Origin: Sulfurimonas lithotrophica
Lineage (GTDB): Bacteria; Campylobacterota; Campylobacteria; Campylobacterales; Sulfurimonadaceae
Direction of reading: 5' to 3'
Length of the DNA: 64,000 nt
NCBI RefSeq assembly: GCF_009258225.1
Contig: NZ_CP043617.1
Span: forward strand, 2,170,001 to 2,234,000
Shown: positions 16,847-25,372 of the stretch, in pieces
Numbering within the stretch: the stretch's first letter is position 1
How the letters are laid out: each line of letters opens with the position of its first letter
The notes under the pieces: model-generated
The model's database searches: none
The model's input: the letters and a program-made list of their open reading frames with translations, nothing else
What the model was told of the DNA's origin: nothing
Program-made: the position numbers and the translations under genes

Positions 16847-18853
16847 TTAAAACAACAGTTCCTCTGTAGCTTTAACTTCTTGTTCTACTCTTGGCGGTTT
16901 AGAAATATCGCTAAAGTATTCTTTTCTTTTTCCGACTTTTACTTCTACTATTCCATCAGGTACGTCAAATTTTCTTTTTATTTGAGGATACAGTTTTAAA
17001 AGTGAATCATAGTACATTTTAAATGCAGGTCCTGCTATTTTACCACCAGTTTCCCATCTATGCATCGGAGAATTGTCGTCATTTCCAAACCATACTATGG
17101 TTTGAATCGTCGGGGAATATCCTGCAAACCAACCATCTACATTATTATTTGTAGTACCTGTTTTTCCTGCAAGTTCAATCCCCCAAGCTTTTGCACGGCG
17201 ACCCGTACCACGGTTAACAACATCACGCAAAATAGACGTCATTATAAATGCTTGCGTAGGCTCGGTTATAAACCTTGTTATCTCTTGACGCTCATATACG
17301 ACATCACCGTTTTTTTCTATAGACGAAATTAGACTAGGTTCTATCTGTATGCCGTCATTTGCAAAAGAAGAATAGTATTTTGCAAGTTGAAGCGGAGATA
17401 AAGAGATTGTACCAAGAGAGACTGATAAATCCCTAGGAAGATTCTCTATACCAAACTTATCAAGCTGTGTTAAAAGCTGGTTTAATCCTATCTCGTTTAC
17501 AAGGTTGATCGTAGCAAGGTTTCTTGAGTGTACAAGTGCTTCGCGAAGAGATATTAAACCTTTATAGTTTTTCTCATAGTTTTTCGGCTTCCACATTAAC
17601 TCTTCGCCGTCTTTTTCATACTTGTATGTACGCGAAACATCTACAAGTTTAGTAGCACCCGAATACCCTAAATCTATACCCACTTGATATATAAAAGGCT
17701 TAAAGGCAGACCCCGGCTGACGTCTTCCCTGCGTGGCACGATTATATGAACTTTTTTCATAATCGGTACTTCCGACCATCGCGAGTATATTTCCTGTTTT
17801 TGCTTCAAGTGAAACAAGTGCACCGTTTAGAAGTGTAGTATTTGTCTCGGGTGCTACTTCCCAAGTAGGGTCTTTTGCAAGAATCTCCTGATCTTTGATT
17901 TTATATTCTTCTATTCTCTCCAAAGACATCTCATAAGCTTTTTTAACAGCTTCACGGGCAACTTCTTGAAGTCTTAAATCTACGGTAGTATAAACTTTAT
18001 AACCACCGCTTTTGATATCTTCCATACCTTCTTTTAACATTCTGCGGACAACTTCATCAACAATAAAAGGTGCTTGATTCTGAGTCAGGGTATCATCATA
18101 AACTTCCGGATTTCTAGCTATCTCTTCTTGGTAGGTCACTTCATCAATCCAGCCTAAGACCTTCATACGTTTTAGTACGCGGTTAGCTCTGCCCATAGAT
18201 ATTTCATAATTTTTAGTCGGTGCATATGTACTAGGTGCTTTTGGTAACCCTACCAATACGGCTATCTCTTTTAGTGTTAAATCTTCTAAACGCTTATGAA
18301 AGTAGCCATCCGCCGCTGTTTTGATTCCGTAATAACCGTGACCGAAATAAATCTCGTTTAGATATCTCTCTAAAATCTGCTCTTTTGTCAGATGACGTTC
18401 AAGCTTTAGCGAGTAAATAGCTTCTTTAATTTTACGGGAGAGTTTTTTCTCACGTGTAAGCAGTACGTTTTTTACAAGTTGTTGTGTTATCGTACTTGCA
18501 CCCTCAACCGCACGACCTGCTTTTAAAACCTTTATGGCTGCACGAAAAATAGCATCTATATTTATGCCCGGATGCTCAAAGAAAGATGTATCTTCTATAG
18601 CTACAAGAGCTTCTACGACATGAGGCGGTATCTCTTCAAAGGGTGCATAGTATCTATGCTTTTTATCAAAAAGGTTTGCTATTTTATTTCCGTCTTTGTC
18701 GTATATTATTGTTGTTTGCTTAGGGTTATAGTTTATTAAAGATGATATATCATAGGTAGAGACTTGTAAAAAGTATCCAAGTACCAAAAACGGAGTTAAA
18801 AATCCCAGTATCAGTATAGTATATATTATATTTTTGAAACTAATGTTTCTCAT
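16847..18853 (-). CDS. mrcA: penicillin-binding protein 1A (bifunctional transglycosylase/transpeptidase)
   Basis: A 668-residue class A PBP. The order is an N-terminal membrane anchor (residues 9-30), a GT51 glycosyltransferase with Glu87 in AIEDTSFFEHPG and GASTITQQLVKN, and a transpeptidase with Ser382-Lys385 (PGSAFKP), SRN at 443-445 and KTG at 564-566. It polymerises and crosslinks peptidoglycan in the periplasm. It overlaps the ABC ATPase gene upstream by 4 bases and is followed after one base by the response regulator. The symbol follows E. coli usage; Campylobacter annotations often call it pbpA. Confidence 0.93.
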   Translation of the reverse strand: MRNISFKNIIYTILILGFLTPFLVLGYFLQVSTYDISSLINYNPKQTTIIYDKDGNKIANLFDKKHRYYAPFEEIPPHVVEALVAIEDTSFFEHPGINIDAIFRAAIKVLKAGRAVEGASTITQQLVKNVLLTREKKLSRKIKEAIYSLKLERHLTKEQILERYLNEIYFGHGYYGIKTAADGYFHKRLEDLTLKEIAVLVGLPKAPSTYAPTKNYEISMGRANRVLKRMKVLGWIDEVTYQEEIARNPEVYDDTLTQNQAPFIVDEVVRRMLKEGMEDIKSGGYKVYTTVDLRLQEVAREAVKKAYEMSLERIEEYKIKDQEILAKDPTWEVAPETNTTLLNGALVSLEAKTGNILAMVGSTDYEKSSYNRATQGRRQPGSAFKPFIYQVGIDLGYSGATKLVDVSRTYKYEKDGEELMWKPKNYEKNYKGLISLREALVHSRNLATINLVNEIGLNQLLTQLDKFGIENLPRDLSVSLGTISLSPLQLAKYYSSFANDGIQIEPSLISSIEKNGDVVYERQEITRFITEPTQAFIMTSILRDVVNRGTGRRAKAWGIELAGKTGTTNNNVDGWFAGYSPTIQTIVWFGNDDNSPMHRWETGGKIAGPAFKMYYDSLLKLYPQIKRKFDVPDGIVEVKVGKRKEYFSDISKPPRVEQEVKATEELLF

Positions 18854-19539
18854 TTCCTAAAGTCCCTGTTTGCAAAATTTGCTTCGATTAAAGTTTGTGT
18901 ATATTTTTCTTTTGGTGATTGTAAAATATCTTGCATTTTACCATATTCAACCATACTTCCGTCTTTTATAACGCATATATCCTCACATAAACTCTTTGCC
19001 GAGTTCATATCATGTGTTACGAATAATATTTTAAATTCATACTCTTTTTGAAGCTCTTTGAGTAGATCTAAAATTAAAATTCTAGTATTTGGGTCAAGTG
19101 CGGTTGTGGGTTCATCCAACATCAAGAGTTTAGGATCGCCCTCTAACGCCATAGCTATAACCACGCGTTGGAGTTGTCCACCCGATAACTCAGGGGGAAA
19201 CCTCTCTTGTAAAGATGCATCTAAACCTACGTGTTCAAACAACTCATCAACTCTCTCCTGTGAGGTAAAAAACTGCTTTTTTATTTTTGTAAGCGGAGAG
19301 AGTGCCGTAAAAGGATTTTGCGGAACAAACCCGAGTGTCTTACCTGCTACTAATTCAAAGTCTGCATCTATACTAAGCTCTTTTGTCATTGTGTTTGGAA
19401 GCATATTTAGAAGTGCTTTAATACTTAAAGACTTTCCGCTACCACTCTGACCTACCAATGCCAATGATGATTTAATTTCAAATCCAATATCTACTAAAGT
19501 TTTATCGTTTAAATCTATTTTGAGTTTGTTGATTTTCAT
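18850..19539 (-). CDS. ABC transporter ATP-binding protein (oligopeptide/nickel type)
   Basis: A 229-residue ATPase: Walker A GQSGSGKS at residues 30-37, Q-loop FVPQNPF, signature LSGGQLQRV, Walker B LLMLDEPTTALD and the H-loop VTHD. The FVPQNPFTALSPL stretch is typical of DppD/OppD/NikD-type ATPases, but it lacks their C-terminal oligopeptide extension. No permease or binding protein lies nearby in the window. Its neighbours are PBP1A (4-base overlap) and, 24 bases upstream, the last gene of the restriction-modification operon. The transport substrate is unknown. Confidence 0.85.
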   Translation of the reverse strand: MKINKLKIDLNDKTLVDIGFEIKSSLALVGQSGSGKSLSIKALLNMLPNTMTKELSIDADFELVAGKTLGFVPQNPFTALSPLTKIKKQFFTSQERVDELFEHVGLDASLQERFPPELSGGQLQRVVIAMALEGDPKLLMLDEPTTALDPNTRILILDLLKELQKEYEFKILFVTHDMNSAKSLCEDICVIKDGSMVEYGKMQDILQSPKEKYTQTLIEANFANRDFRK

Positions 19540-19563: not shown

Positions 19564-20448
19564 CTAATAGTTGGTTATCAGAATCTCTTTTGTAGAGTCT
19601 GCTTCTTTATTTTTTGCCTGATAATTACAGTTATGATAAGTATAAGTTAGATGATTTACCTTATATTTTTTGCTCCACTTTAGTAAAAGCTCATTTGTTT
19701 TGCCCTTATTTTCAAATACGTTTGAGAGTGCAAACTTCACGCCTTTTGCATCTAAAGCATCCATGTAGTCTAAAAGTTCTTGTTCTTTAGCTTCACCCCA
19801 ACCGCCGTTTTCATTGTAAGCCGCCAAAGTTGCAAGATACGGCGGGTCTATATATACAAATGAGTCTTTTGAGACAGATATATCTTTAAAATCTTTACTG
19901 CTAAAAGAGATGTTTAGATTATTTAACCTATCTATAAAAAGTTCTAAGTTCTTTCTCATGTTTTTATTAAAATCTCTTTTGTTTACGGGTGTATTAAACT
20001 CGCCCTTGGAGTTAAAACGGATTTGGTTGTTAAATGCAAAAACCAAAGTCGTATAGAACATAAGAGGAGTTTTGTTTTTGTTGTAATCGTTTCTTAGTTT
20101 CTCATACGCTTTTTTGTTATAAGCCCCGACACCTTTAGATGAGTTTGTTTTGTACTTATCGTAACCGTATTTTGAAGTGTTTGAGAGTCCGTAAGAATCT
20201 ATAATAGCATCTATCTGCTCTACCAGCTTGTTTGCATCTGATGCTTTAAAAAACTCATACAGATTTATAATATCCGTATTTATATCGTTTGCGATTATTC
20301 TTTTTGCATCTACATTTACAGCTACGTTGCATCCGCCTGCAAACAGATCCACAAAAGTATCAATTTTATCTGGGAAAAGCGGGGTTATCTGTTTTAAAAG
20401 CTTGTGCTTTCCGCCTGTGTAGTTTAGGGGAGATTTTAAAAAATTCAT
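19564..20448 (-). CDS. DNA adenine N6-methyltransferase, D12/Dam family
   Basis: A 294-residue protein when started at the ATG at 20448, which overlaps the upstream stop as ATGA; a longer frame to 20499 would run far into the nuclease gene and is rejected. Motifs in the alpha-class order: SPLNYTGGKHKLL (motif X), VDLFAGGCNVAVN (motif I, AdoMet binding) and DPPY at residues 201-204 (motif IV, catalytic). These define D12-class adenine methylases such as Dam and DpnM. It is the last gene of a five-gene restriction-modification operon, right after an AlwI-family endonuclease, so it should protect one strand or form of that enzyme's site. The exact target sequence cannot be read from the protein. 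Confidence 0.88.
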   Translation of the reverse strand: MNFLKSPLNYTGGKHKLLKQITPLFPDKIDTFVDLFAGGCNVAVNVDAKRIIANDINTDIINLYEFFKASDANKLVEQIDAIIDSYGLSNTSKYGYDKYKTNSSKGVGAYNKKAYEKLRNDYNKNKTPLMFYTTLVFAFNNQIRFNSKGEFNTPVNKRDFNKNMRKNLELFIDRLNNLNISFSSKDFKDISVSKDSFVYIDPPYLATLAAYNENGGWGEAKEQELLDYMDALDAKGVKFALSNVFENKGKTNELLLKWSKKYKVNHLTYTYHNCNYQAKNKEADSTKEILITNY

Positions 20449-22262
20449 AACTTCCCATCCGTAAAGTTTTTTACAATATTTGGAATAGCCCTTAACCACT
20501 CATCAGAACTATTTATATTTTCATCATCTTTTAACTCTACTACACTTTCTAAAAAACTCTGAAATCTTATATGAACAAAACCTTTGTTGTCTTCTTTTAA
20601 AAGTTTTATATACTCTAAAATATCTATGATTTGGGTTATCGTCAAAGGGATTATTTTTTGCTTTTTTCCTTCATACTCATACTTAAGTGAAAACCAAAAA
20701 GTATTTATTGTATCTCTGTGCATCTGAGGTGCTACAAATATACAATAGTTCTCTTTAGATGACTTATCTTCAAAATCCCTAAAGTGTCTCATAACAGGCT
20801 GACCTTCATTATGCCACTGGTCACGTCCCGTTAGCATCGTAACCTCACAGATGCTATTAAAAGATTCATAATAACACTCAATATCTGGCTTATTTGCAGG
20901 GGCTGTAAATATAAAATCGCCATCGTCACCAAGCAACGAATTCGGCTTTATCTCTTTTGCATCGTTGATTATATTTAAAGCCATAGTTATATACTTCTCT
21001 AACGCTATGCTTGGTTTTAAATCTAAAGTCCTGATATTTTTTAATGAATCTATTGTCTCATCAATTTTAGATATATCTTGCAGTTGAATTTTTAAAACCT
21101 GTTTTAAAAGTAACTTTCTGTACTCTCTTAATCTATTTATCTCTTGTTCTTCAAATTGTTTCAAAGTTAAACTTGGTTCTCTTAATTTAACAGATGCCAA
21201 AAACAGTGTATGGCTTTTTTTAGATAAGTTATTCTCTCTAAATATTTTATCAATATCTCTAACCAAATCATTATATATTTCATTTAGATTTTTTGCATTT
21301 TCCCAAGGTAGTTGCGGTAAATTTATATTCGATATATAATCTATATATTCATCTTTTGTAAATTTTTCTGCACTTCCATCATATGTTTTTAAAAGTGTTT
21401 CTATCTCAACTTTTCTTCTTGGTTCCAAGTCTATATAGTATCCACCGCCGCGAATATAAATAAGACGTGTCAAACGAAAATACCTTATGGTATTATCTGC
21501 ATAATCACTTAGATTTTCTATATTTACAAAGTCATATAAAAATTGCTCTTTAAAGGCTTCTATAAACTCTTTTTTTAATTTATACTCTTTTATACTTTCT
21601 GTTCTTTGCCTAAACTCTAATAGCTGCTCTGCCTGTGAATCAAGTTCTTTATAGTGTGTCAGTGTCTGAGCAAATATCTCAAACTCAACCCTTGAAATCC
21701 CTTTTTCTTTTAGCCCTTTTTCACTGCATAACTCATTTACTCTTTTAATAAGATGCAAGGTTAATATAAAAGGTTTTAAATCATATATTGTATTATCGGA
21801 GAACTCTCTATCTACGGGATTTGGATACTGCCATTTTAAAAAACTTCTAAAAAAAAGCTCCCCTAAGTCATAATTGTCGCTTAAAAGATACTCACCCAAA
21901 GAGGTTATTTTTATCTTTCTATCTTTTATAGTCGCTAACCCCATCTTTTCAAGTGTTTTATACGAGTTTCTGCCTCGCATAGAAGCACCGACATAGTTTT
22001 TTGACTCAAATATATCTTTTGCATCTTCCATTGAGATTTTTTTGTTTATATCTTCAAGCAAGTCTATATGTTCTGACGATAGTCCGTTATAAAACTGGGT
22101 ATTTCCATATCCGTAGTATCTGTTTTTAATAAGTCTTATTTGAAACTCTAACTGTGCATCTTTATTCCAGATACAACCCTGCATCTCTTTTAGAGTAATT
22201 AGAAAGTTTCTTAACCTTTCAGGGTTTCTAAGAGTAGTTGATATAGACCAGACTTTTTTCAA
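20445..22262 (-). CDS. AlwI-family type IIS restriction endonuclease
   Basis: A 605-residue protein that opens with KVWSISTTLRNPERLRNFL, a strong match to the N-terminus of the AlwI/PleI/MlyI/BstNBI family as I know it, and has the family's overall length. A likely nuclease core lies in the C-terminal third (around DIECYYESFNSICEVTMLTG, where the Glu/Asp-x-n pattern precedes GRDQWHNEGQPVMRH). Known members read asymmetric sites (GGATC or GAGTC) and cut a few bases away. The start is TTG 22262, overlapping the DpnD-like stop as TTGA. Asymmetric recognition fits the presence of two different adenine methylases in the operon. Confidence 0.85.
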   Translation of the reverse strand: MKKVWSISTTLRNPERLRNFLITLKEMQGCIWNKDAQLEFQIRLIKNRYYGYGNTQFYNGLSSEHIDLLEDINKKISMEDAKDIFESKNYVGASMRGRNSYKTLEKMGLATIKDRKIKITSLGEYLLSDNYDLGELFFRSFLKWQYPNPVDREFSDNTIYDLKPFILTLHLIKRVNELCSEKGLKEKGISRVEFEIFAQTLTHYKELDSQAEQLLEFRQRTESIKEYKLKKEFIEAFKEQFLYDFVNIENLSDYADNTIRYFRLTRLIYIRGGGYYIDLEPRRKVEIETLLKTYDGSAEKFTKDEYIDYISNINLPQLPWENAKNLNEIYNDLVRDIDKIFRENNLSKKSHTLFLASVKLREPSLTLKQFEEQEINRLREYRKLLLKQVLKIQLQDISKIDETIDSLKNIRTLDLKPSIALEKYITMALNIINDAKEIKPNSLLGDDGDFIFTAPANKPDIECYYESFNSICEVTMLTGRDQWHNEGQPVMRHFRDFEDKSSKENYCIFVAPQMHRDTINTFWFSLKYEYEGKKQKIIPLTITQIIDILEYIKLLKEDNKGFVHIRFQSFLESVVELKDDENINSSDEWLRAIPNIVKNFTDGKL

Positions 22263-22450
22263 TTTTTTCTCTCATCAGAAATATTTTTTTTATTTTCAAT
22301 AATAACATCTCCATTGAAATCAGAATAATCTAAAACTATATCTTCATTGTTATACATATCTGAAACTATATTAACAGCCTCTTCTTCTGAACTAGCTTCA
22401 ACAGTAATTGTTTTTGACAAAACTTCTGTTATATTTATTTCATACTTCAT
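22259..22450 (-). CDS. dpnD: DpnD/PcfM-like small protein
   Basis: A 63-residue protein of the form KYEINITEVLSKTITVEA, then a helix rich in Glu (SSEEEAVNIVSDMYNN) and DIVLDYSDFNGDVIIE. This beta-alpha-beta pattern is that of the DpnD-PcfM family; in Streptococcus pneumoniae dpnD lies directly after dpnC (DpnI). The same order is seen here: it starts one base after the DpnI-homologue stop and overlaps the AlwI-like gene. The function of DpnD is not known to me. The family assignment is by motif and position, moderately sure. Confidence 0.75.
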   Translation of the reverse strand: MKYEINITEVLSKTITVEASSEEEAVNIVSDMYNNEDIVLDYSDFNGDVIIENKKNISDERKN

Positions 22451-22451
22451 A

Positions 22452-23216
22452 TTATTTTAACCTATATTTTCCTCGACTTACAAACTCAAGATAATCTCTA
22501 TCTCTAAGCAATTGAAGTTGTTGTCTTATTTTTGCTTGAATATTATTATTTTTTGGATGTCTTATTTTTAAATATTTTTCAAATTTGTACATATCATTAA
22601 GTGTAAAACTATTCTCATTAATTTTTTCAATACACATGATTATATCAATTATCCAACTTTTTGACTGGATGTCAGATGATTGTCTTAAAAAATTAGTTTT
22701 ATTCCACTCTTCTAATACTTTATCTTTACTTTGTATTTCACCATTTTCGATATAAGATATTTTACCGCTATTTGGAATACTGGATATATCAATATTACAC
22801 ATAAAATAGTTAGGTCTATTCGGTATGCCTTTTTTTCTTTTTATAATCATTTCCGGAACAAACATATAACCCGGTGTTGCTACGAAATTTATTATTTTAT
22901 GTGTATCCTTTTCATAATTTAAAAAGAAAAAATTTGGACTACTATCACTAGTAATTCTCTCAATCATAGTATCATATGCCCCATCGGCAACAATCTTACC
23001 GAGTGAATTACCTTTTTTACTTTTTAATTCATAATCCTCACTGCATTTTAAACAAAAGAAATCTGCCACAGGTTTATTATTTTTATATTCGCTTACATTA
23101 TCTCCACATTTAGGACAATATATATTTTCATTTACCCAGTTTTCAGTCAATACCCTTATCTTTTGTGAATTGTTTTTATATCCATCGCTTAAAGCAGAAT
23201 ATAAATTTAAATTCAT
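22452..23216 (-). CDS. dpnC: DpnI-family methyl-directed restriction endonuclease (type IIM)
   Basis: A 254-residue protein, the size of pneumococcal DpnI and similar over its whole length as I recall that sequence. It has NSQKIRVLTENWV, a zinc site (Cys34, Cys37, Cys55, Cys58), and the PD-(D/E)xK core Asp52 (PVADF), Glu63 and Lys65 (ELKSKKGN). NFFFLNY, the CNIDIS strand and a C-terminal winged-helix (IRQQLQLLRDRDYLEF, then GKYR) follow. DpnI cuts GATC only when adenine is methylated. Here Tyr137 stands where I recall a tryptophan in DpnI (AGWIGC). It overlaps the methylase upstream by 4 bases (ATGA) and is followed by the DpnD-like gene. Confidence 0.92.
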   Translation of the reverse strand: MNLNLYSALSDGYKNNSQKIRVLTENWVNENIYCPKCGDNVSEYKNNKPVADFFCLKCSEDYELKSKKGNSLGKIVADGAYDTMIERITSDSSPNFFFLNYEKDTHKIINFVATPGYMFVPEMIIKRKKGIPNRPNYFMCNIDISSIPNSGKISYIENGEIQSKDKVLEEWNKTNFLRQSSDIQSKSWIIDIIMCIEKINENSFTLNDMYKFEKYLKIRHPKNNNIQAKIRQQLQLLRDRDYLEFVSRGKYRLK

Positions 23217-24226
23217 TTAATAACCTTCACAAAAAACACCCTCTCTTTATTGTCGGCGTGTTCACTCTTGCCCGTTGTAAATGCTTTGTAATCTTTCTCA
23301 TAAACCTTAACTTCGCCACGCTTTGACATAGATTTTATAATATCCTCGTCACTTATTTTAGCATTGCTTCTATCGTTTCCGCGTTTTGCCATGTTGTTAT
23401 ATGAGAGGAGCATATATTTACATTTTGCATTGACTACCAAGTCATCAAAACTCTCTGCCGCACTACGTTTTGAATATTCGCTTTTTATCTTGCTTCTGTC
23501 AAACTTTTTGGCTACTCCAAACACCTCCGGCTTTTGCCAAAGAGATAGATTTTCAAGCAGGTGGTAAGCGTCACAGTATTGTCTGGAATTATACGGCGGA
23601 TCCATATACAAGACATCACATTCTATATCGCGTATAAGCATATTCGCATCTGTGTTGTGAACTTCGTTTAGAGCATTTTTTTCATTGTCTATATCTAGCA
23701 TCTTCATCTCAAAACTCTGTTCACGTATCTCTTTTTTTATGTATGCATCGTAGTGTCCTACGGTATTTGCGATGCGGTCTATTGCATAGTTTAGAGAAGT
23801 GATAAGTATATGTTTTTCTTTGAGATTTATTGCATCGGATATATATAGTTTTTTAATCTCTTGACGAATAAAACCTATCTTTTTTGCCACCTCATCAGAA
23901 AAGTAACGCCCACCAAAATTTTTAGAAAAGTAGTTTGCTTTTGTAGGAGTAGATGCATTAAATTCAGCTATGTAGTTTAGTACCTTTTTTTCATCATAAT
24001 CTTCATCGTTTAAAAAAGCGTTTAGTGAGATGAAGTTTTGGTAAAGCAGATCGTTTGAGATGATTTTCTTGTCTTTAGCGTTAAAGTATTCACCTACAAC
24101 CCCGGTACCTGAGAATATATCGCACAAAGAGTCAAACTCCCCAACTTCGCTTTGGATTATCTCATCTATAAAAGGCAAAATGCTATTTTTATTTCCTAAG
24201 TATCTGCGTTGTGAAATTTTATACAA
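23213..24226 (-). CDS. DNA adenine methyltransferase, D12 class
   Basis: A 337-residue protein: QRRYLGNKNSILPFI (motif X), LCDIFSGTGVVGEYF (motif I) and YMDPPYNSRQY (motif IV), the alpha order of D12 adenine methylases. The start is TTG 24226, with AGGA 9 bases upstream; the only nearby ATG is out of frame and runs straight into a stop. It is the first gene of the restriction-modification operon and overlaps the DpnI homologue by 4 bases. It differs clearly from the second methylase at 19564, so the pair may treat the two strands of an asymmetric site. Recognition sequence unknown. Confidence 0.88.
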   Translation of the reverse strand: MYKISQRRYLGNKNSILPFIDEIIQSEVGEFDSLCDIFSGTGVVGEYFNAKDKKIISNDLLYQNFISLNAFLNDEDYDEKKVLNYIAEFNASTPTKANYFSKNFGGRYFSDEVAKKIGFIRQEIKKLYISDAINLKEKHILITSLNYAIDRIANTVGHYDAYIKKEIREQSFEMKMLDIDNEKNALNEVHNTDANMLIRDIECDVLYMDPPYNSRQYCDAYHLLENLSLWQKPEVFGVAKKFDRSKIKSEYSKRSAAESFDDLVVNAKCKYMLLSYNNMAKRGNDRSNAKISDEDIIKSMSKRGEVKVYEKDYKAFTTGKSEHADNKERVFFVKVIK

Positions 24227-24274: not shown

Positions 24275-25372
24275 TTAGATAATTTTAGCCAATTTTTTAC
24301 ACAGAGAGATTAAGTCGCTCTCACTCTCGCCCAGTCTTGCTATAAGACGTACTATCGCTTTTGGGACGGTCGGTTGGCGTATAGCTCCTATTGCATAATC
24401 CTCTTTTTGCATAAGCTCTTTTATATCCATCACTTTTTTATTGTCGTTTATGATTATCGGCACTATTAAACCATCTACGCTGATGCCAAGTTCACGCTGT
24501 ATTATCATCTTACGAAGGTTTATCTCGCCAAGTAAGATCTCTCTGTTTTCTCTGATATATTCAAGAGATTTATGCGCTAAGAGAGTATCATAAAGGGAGA
24601 GTGCCGTCGCGTAGATTATAGGTTTTGCACGGTTTATAAGATAATCTATAATGTGAGCAGATGCGAGTATATATGCACCGAATCCACCATATGCTTTTCC
24701 AAGTGTACCCATCTTTATATGATTTGGTTTTGGAGTGATTTTGTACAAATCAAACACACCCATAAGTCTCTCCCCCACAACTCCGCTGCTGTGAGCTTCA
24801 TCTACTATAAGTATGGCGTCTTGTGCATCTGCTATCTCAAAAACTTCCCTATCGCACAAATCCCCATCCATAGAGTAGATGCCCTCAACAGCTATTATCT
24901 TTCTTTTTGCATCTGAGTGCTCACGTAAGAGTCTTTGTAAATCTTGCATATCGTTATGTTTAAAAAAGACTACACTTACATGTTCAAGCTGTGTAGCCAG
25001 CACACCTGATGCATGGTAAAGCTCATCCATAAACAGCATATCGCCTTTACGACAAAGCGCTTCTATCATCGCTATATTTGCGTTAAATCCGCTTCCAACA
25101 ACTACCGCATCTTCAAAGTTGTTTGCTTCGCAAAGTGCTACTTCGAAATCTTTATGCACTTGATGGTAACCGTTTACAAGTAAAGATGCTTTAGCAGAAT
25201 GTGAAGGCAGTTTTTCCAGCTCTTGAGAGGTTGCTTTATGAAGCTCTTTGTTATGTGCAAGCCCTAAGTAGTCATTAGATGCAAAGTCTTTTAACGCGGC
25301 ATCTACAACTTTTCTCTCTCTGTATCTGAGTGATTTTTTTAAAGCTTTTAGTTCATTTTCATAGTACATCAT
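24275..25372 (-). CDS. bioF: 8-amino-7-oxononanoate synthase (biotin synthesis)
   Basis: A 365-residue PLP enzyme of the alpha-oxoamine synthase family: ASNDYLGLA near the N-terminus, DEAHSSGVVG, and the PLP lysine Lys226 in GTLGKAYGG. It joins pimeloyl thioester and alanine to make the biotin precursor KAPA. It is slightly shorter than E. coli BioF (384). Related KBL or serine palmitoyltransferase activities are possible, but the compact size favours BioF. It overlaps the diguanylate cyclase stop by 4 bases; other bio genes are not in the window. Confidence 0.88.
   Translation of the reverse strand: MMYYENELKALKKSLRYRERKVVDAALKDFASNDYLGLAHNKELHKATSQELEKLPSHSAKASLLVNGYHQVHKDFEVALCEANNFEDAVVVGSGFNANIAMIEALCRKGDMLFMDELYHASGVLATQLEHVSVVFFKHNDMQDLQRLLREHSDAKRKIIAVEGIYSMDGDLCDREVFEIADAQDAILIVDEAHSSGVVGERLMGVFDLYKITPKPNHIKMGTLGKAYGGFGAYILASAHIIDYLINRAKPIIYATALSLYDTLLAHKSLEYIRENREILLGEINLRKMIIQRELGISVDGLIVPIIINDNKKVMDIKELMQKEDYAIGAIRQPTVPKAIVRLIARLGESESDLISLCKKLAKII

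Follow-up and report, generated by a model that had tools for sequence, protein, structure and literature searches.

DpnI and GATC methylation are a textbook case of mutually exclusive systems. How might a DpnI gene and the genes of probable GATC methylases come to stand, intact, in a single operon? The question is raised by five genes at positions 19564-24226 of a 64,000-nucleotide stretch of the Sulfurimonas lithotrophica genome (contig NZ_CP043617.1, positions 2,170,001 to 2,234,000), which as a whole we call the window. Judged by its sequence, the operon is an AlwI-type Type IIS restriction-modification (R-M) operon, in which two adenine methyltransferases enclose the endonuclease (M1-R-M2), and it carries a dpnI-dpnD cassette between M1 and R. 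The parts are known but the arrangement is new: a modification-dependent nuclease cassette is nested in a modification-blocked R-M operon.

Our preferred reading, to which we give a probability of about 60%, is that an operon of the AlwI kind and a dpnI-dpnD cassette of the pneumococcal type act together as a two-layer defence. M1 and M2 are predicted to methylate one strand each of an AlwI-type site, most likely GGATC/GATCC, and R would cut foreign DNA without this mark. Phages or plasmids with Dam-type methylation may carry Gm6ATC and thereby escape R; DpnI would form the second, modification-dependent layer by cutting foreign DNA of this kind. The initial annotation had offered a two-layer system among its options. 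That reading fits the anatomy. What the sequences show directly is which genes are present and intact, the insertion and its slot, the retained catalytic and base-contact residues, and purifying selection on DpnI; the GGATC site, the activity of each enzyme and the two-layer role we infer.

All five open reading frames (ORFs) are open and intact on the minus strand, and Pfam, NCBIfam and PADLOC are concordant on their families, which confirms the five-gene operon as first described. M1 (23213-24226, 337 amino acids, TTG start) is a D12-class N6-adenine methyltransferase (PF02086, 3e-30; PADLOC families PDLC03292, 363 bits, and PDLC03373, 355 bits). It is followed by a DpnI-family N6-methyladenine (m6A)-dependent endonuclease with a Drg-type loop (22452-23216, 254 amino acids; PF06044, 6e-70; PF17726, 8e-32), built of a PD-(D/E)XK domain and a winged helix, and by a small DpnD/PcfM-like protein, the second gene of the DpnI cassette (22259-22450, 63 amino acids; PF14207, 1.7e-17). 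R (20445-22262, 605 amino acids, TTG start; PF09491, 3e-81) is a Type IIS restriction endonuclease of the AlwI family, and M2 (19564-20448, 294 amino acids, ATG start; PF02086, 2e-36; TIGR00571 dam, 6e-47) is a Dam-family N6-adenine methyltransferase with an alternative longer form from a GTG start at 20499. The four junctions read as previously reported: M1 and DpnI overlap by ATGA (23213-23216), a single base (22451) parts DpnI from DpnD, and overlaps of TTGA (22259-22262) and ATGA (20445-20448) join DpnD to R and R to M2.

The assignment of the second gene to the DpnI family is, by sequence comparison, far beyond chance: along its whole length the protein shares 46-47% identity with Streptococcus pneumoniae DpnI (E 9e-76), and its AlphaFold2 model (mean pLDDT, the predicted local distance difference test, 89) matches structure 4esj with template modelling scores of 0.86-0.88 and also matches 4kyw. 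With residue roles taken from the S. pneumoniae enzyme (PMC4117772), the catalytic D53, E64 and K66 and the Cys4 zinc site are all kept, and so are the base contacts S17, Q18, N48, R126 and R135. The methyl-pocket loop, on the other hand, departs from S. pneumoniae DpnI by a deletion of two residues, the loss of L129, and the changes W138Y and G140M. In a first alignment the Y/M pair was seen only in the window and in L064, with W138/G140 in all other Campylobacterota DpnI aligned (relatives are cited by our numbers, G for genomes and L for sequence stretches). Has the methyl reading changed, as had been suggested? The gonococcal Drg loop has the same deletion, with H138 and M140, and Drg cuts only GmeATC and leaves unmethylated DNA uncut, the same pattern as DpnI (PMC4269198). 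As a loop of this type is proven to be active on GmeATC, the loop does not by itself suggest a change of methyl reading; stand-alone Sulfurimonas copies (L090, L092) carry the same loop type too, and we rejected the altered loop as a sign of such a change. Nor is the L129/W138/G140 pocket, absent from the window protein, a defining feature of the family, since it also varies in Drg and in homologues with Y or H at 138 (PMC4117772). The window DpnI is predicted to be an active Gm6ATC enzyme.

Purifying selection acts on DpnI: in comparison with its nearest relative, in G391, the ratio of nonsynonymous to synonymous substitution rates (dN/dS) is 0.15 at a dS of 0.74. This bears on the idea that the cassette is carried along dead or silent, with dpnI unexpressed or M1 and M2 switched off, so that there would be neither a conflict nor a two-layer defence. 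In its favour, remnants of DpnI are seen elsewhere in the Campylobacterota (G304, G254, G409 and G240), and R-M operons decay within the genus, where G384 retains M1 alone and G371 has fragments. In the window, however, the five genes are open, their junctions are translationally tight, a GAAGG motif stands 7 nucleotides ahead of the DpnI start, dN/dS is low, and no catalytic residue has been lost. We regard silent freight as unlikely.

How did the cassette arrive? The operon lies between a bioF-like aminotransferase gene upstream (24275-25372, minus strand; PF00155) and an ABC-transporter ATPase gene downstream (18850-19539, minus strand; PF00005), the latter flank being shared with G398, G332, G304 and G389. 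In at least 10 relatives without the operon the two flanking genes nearly touch, at a distance of about 6-17 bp, and everything between them in the window is therefore an insertion. At the same locus G332 has M1-R-M2 with an empty M1|R junction, G304 and G389 have M1-R-Mbeta, with a beta-class methylase in place of M2, and G398 has M1, a gene of 452 amino acids, R and M2; in G348 an M1 that is 91% identical to that of the window is followed by a C5-cytosine methylase up to the end of the contig. The 452-amino-acid protein of G398 (L111:9014-10372) has a hydrophobic C-terminal third and matches nothing in Pfam or PADLOC.

Within this larger insertion the dpnI-dpnD cargo (approximately 22259-23212, minus strand) is AT-rich, with a guanine-plus-cytosine content of 26.3% for dpnI and 24.0% for dpnD against 30.6-39.1% for the neighbouring genes. 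In the cargo-free operon of G332 the M1 stop and the R start overlap within the string AAAAATTGAAAAAAG. In the window this same string lies where DpnD meets R, and the end of M1 is a new one, overlapping the start of DpnI. This fits a two-gene cassette inserted within the last codons of M1. A DpnI-DpnD pair is also found in G391, apart from the R-M genes of that genome and with a DpnI 80% identical to that of the window, and DpnD adjoins DpnI in L128 (from G391), L064 (from G177) and L098. We looked for phage or plasmid carriage of DpnI and rejected both: viral contigs and phages hold no full-length relative, and among plasmids the only records are two from Neisseria, both of chromosome size. 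In many Campylobacterota a protein of about 146 amino acids directly follows DpnI, at the place of the window DpnD; these proteins start MPI(S/T/K)R..AL.I..YLLDN.SFYFPF and are without a Pfam match in the copies scanned (e.g. L092:7769-8209 and L096:4516-4965). In L098 (1436-3239), from a metagenome-assembled genome (MAG) of the Selenomonadaceae, DpnI and DpnD directly follow a D12 methylase of nearly full length, which has DSPY for DPPY and an odd C-terminus.

The M1|R junction is probably a recurrent cargo slot. In G565, from elsewhere in the order, an AAA_13 ATPase related to PrrC lies between M1 and an AlwI-like R; G043 has two small genes there, G451 an ambiguous 98-amino-acid ORF, and in G134 and G429 the junction is empty. 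Cargo is thus found at M1|R in 4 or 5 of 10 M1-R-second-methylase operons and at R|second methylase in none of the 10 (p 0.087 or 0.033, post hoc), or, at M1|R, in 3-4 of the 9 remaining same-strand operons when that of the window is left out. The ATPase of G565 (L143:3024-5204) has 726 amino acids and matches PF13166 (2e-177), the PADLOC candidate PDC-S06 (4e-268) and PrrC (5e-13). In G134 (L050:6865-8700) a RadC-like protein (PF04002) is fused ahead of M1, and R has an N-terminal extension of about 210 amino acids.

Two unrelated mobile cassettes could also have been joined by chance, with no functional relation between them. The exact five-gene order occurs in no other genome among the 17 with R, and most DpnI genes of the phylum stand alone; the initial annotation had made a gene order found nowhere else one of its two conditions for this very interpretation. 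The order is indeed unique to the window, but the M1|R junction takes other cargo elsewhere, including a PrrC-like defence candidate, and the second junction takes none. In addition, an intact DpnI is present in 3 of the 17 genomes with R, namely the window genome (G000), G391 and G451, and their DpnI proteins form one clade (support 100/92) among about 35 DpnI-bearing Campylobacterota genomes, in the others of which R was not seen. Given the window, the odds that the two other R-bearing genomes should be its two sisters are 1 in 561, a post hoc figure. The DpnI clade thus tracks genomes with AlwI-like R-M systems, and a chance join seems to us improbable.

Much depends on the site that the R-M enzymes read. 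R scores 422 bits on PADLOC family PDLC03393 and 96 bits on PDLC03394, both labelled 'nicking'. A BspD6I fragment scores 1148 bits on the latter, which identifies PDLC03394 as the BspD6I family and places R outside the BstNBI/BspD6I (GAGTC) model; PDLC03393 is probably the AlwI branch. The R residues D460 and E473-V-T475 align with N.BspD6I and are invariant in relatives. M1 keeps the DPPYNSRQY motif of all aligned relatives and has only three window-unique changes at otherwise invariant sites, all of them conservative; with nearly no unique changes, its site should equal that of relatives without DpnI. For Mbeta, which replaces M2 in two relatives, the top family is the same as that of the beta methylase of pSRQ700, which we take to be that of the GATC system LlaDCHI. 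M2 has phage T4 Dam as its best solved relative (1e-51) and carries an insertion of about 19 amino acids that T4 Dam lacks, comparable to one of 15 amino acids that has been reported in the Dam-type methylases accompanying AlwI-family enzymes (PMC12898733). In G117 and G166 an M1::M2 fusion accompanies R, and fused methylases with R are the published layout for AlwI and EacI (PMC4081073, PMC3526280). AlwI systems methylate GGATC and GATCC (PMC4081073, PMC3526280), and AlwI-type methylation would thereby place Gm6ATC on both strands. Finally, M1 and M2 are the sole candidates for GATC methylation that the D12 and N6_N4 families offer in the host: its genome encodes no further D12 enzyme, nor any of the N6_N4 type that scores above threshold. 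Taken together, these placements make GGATC/GATCC the probable site of the operon; in the literature we found no published GGATC methylome for Sulfurimonas or Campylobacter relatives.

The site might instead contain no GATC at all (e.g. GGATG, GATGC or GASTC). The methylases would then mark a site that DpnI ignores, an option raised from the start, and the cassette would be compatible cargo. M1 and M2 also match PDLC03287, which we presume, from a fitting protein length, to be the family of M.FokI (GGATG); the score of M1 on PDLC03292 is double that on PDLC03287, however. Enzymes with GATGC and GASTC sites belong to the AlwI family (PMC9799307), and in three genomes the R-M system coexists with DpnI. 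Against this stand the score of R, much higher on PDLC03393 than on the BspD6I family, the position of T4 Dam as the nearest relative of M2, and the family that Mbeta shares with the pSRQ700 enzyme. This indirect evidence favours a GATC-containing site, and we consider a site without GATC somewhat unlikely.

Can the composition of the host genome reveal the site? The host genome measures 2.4 Mb, and we sampled 464 kb of it, made up of twenty 20-kb stretches (L070-L089) and the window. By z-score no 4-mer is more under-represented than GATC, at 0.28 of expectation. However, relatives that have no DpnI at this locus show a similar deficit, and we rejected GATC avoidance as evidence for the system. 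In the same sample GGCC is also depleted (0.21), and the GTMKAC forms GTATAC, GTAGAC, GTCTAC and GTCGAC are all about nine-fold under-represented (0.09-0.13), as if an AccI-like R-M system were present now or formerly in the host.

Several observations count against a two-layer defence at GGATC. GGATC stands at 1.35 of expectation, with no specific avoidance of this sequence in the host sample. Scaled from the same sample there are about 1000 GGATC sites per genome, so that a GGATC site with active methylases and an active DpnI would give about 1000 self-target sites per host genome. The equation of PDLC03393 with AlwI depends on a family label and on the exclusion of BspD6I, and Mbeta scores almost as high on CcrM/HinfI-type (GANTC) families, which makes the site inference from Mbeta not exclusive and also lends some support to a site without GATC. 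The statistics are post hoc, as said above, and both G391, which is named as a MAG, and G451 have the look of draft assemblies from metagenomes.

The initial annotation had drawn attention to a conflict between DpnI and the methylases, and this conflict is real in principle, given the GGATC and GATCC methylation of AlwI systems (PMC4081073, PMC3526280). The pneumococcal DpnI cassette is not known to occur together with a GATC-methylating system; in the window M1 and the Dam-family M2, whose site probably contains GATC, are both intact beside it. Among winged-helix m6A nucleases a survey counted few conflicts of this sort (fewer than 100 of more than 1000), mostly with stand-alone enzymes (PMC11037411). 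Mutual exclusion of DpnI and the R-M system was not seen in our draws, either from the genus (2 found against 0.9 expected) or from the order (2 of 9 against 21 of 390, p 0.09).

How then would the host survive, with the anatomy granted? Two answers are tentative but serious: the site may not be read as Gm6ATC after all, or one partner may be silent or inactive in the cell. A third, that this DpnI clade spares the methylation of GGATC by its own host, is possible if somewhat doubtful. The three proteins of the clade share L113T, F117M and I139F (DpnI numbering), and the clade-unique I139F, which adjoins a methyl-binding residue, keeps alive the suggestion of a changed methyl reading that the loop does not support. 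Taken further, the clade could have been retuned such that it spares Gm6ATC in the GGATC/GATCC context of the host and cuts Gm6ATC elsewhere. We think this quite unlikely. If true, DNA with too little methylation would fall to R and DNA with Dam-type over-methylation to DpnI, such that only the exact methyl pattern would survive, and I139F, next to the methyl pocket, would belong to the retuning.

The two-layer operon that we favour can be compared with a number of known systems. AlwI, EacI and GmeI (GGATC) also combine an AlwI-family endonuclease with two adenine methylases, one per strand; family placement is the ground of this likeness, and the GGATC/GATCC site of the window operon is a prediction. 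The window operon differs from these systems in that M1 and M2 are separate genes flanking R, with the DpnI-DpnD cassette at M1|R. The GmeI system of Geobacter metallireducens resembles it further, as an unrelated ORF of 333 amino acids lies between M.GmeI and GmeIP (PMC3526280). The pneumococcal DpnI cassette (dpnC-dpnD) has the same two genes as the window, a full-length DpnI and a DpnD-family partner. However, it is an allelic alternative to the methylase-bearing DpnII and DpnIII cassettes, whereas the window cassette sits inside a methylase operon.

The neisserial dam-replacing gene, Drg, is of the same family and loop type as the window DpnI (two-residue deletion, M at 140) but destroyed the methylase in which it landed, whereas both window methylases are intact. 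Dam replacement has also occurred in Campylobacterota, since DpnI directly follows the first ~75 codons of dam in L093, L095, L096 and L064 (G177), as in neisserial drg. The L095 contig is filed as Desulfosporosinus; its DpnI is identical to that of G531 (Campylobacterota), and it looks like mis-binned Campylobacterota DNA. The winged-helix m6A endonucleases may likewise target their own genome through a GATC-containing methylase, but some methylases adjacent to them are inactivated (PMC11037411), whereas those of the window are intact and in the same operon. Finally, PrrC in the EcoprrI locus (PMC12707154) is, like DpnI here, an additional defence gene that lies within an R-M operon, and such nesting is what the cargo at M1|R amounts to in the window and its relatives. 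The effectors differ: PrrC is a tRNA nuclease that becomes active when the R-M enzyme is inhibited, and DpnI is a DNA nuclease triggered by a methyl mark.

In an intact operon that joins DpnI to likely GATC methylation, the question of how a cell holds a nuclease against its own likely mark becomes testable. Furthermore, the genes at M1|R vary across species, and one of them is a PrrC/RloC-like candidate, which suggests that ordinary Type II R-M operons may serve as platforms for back-up defence.

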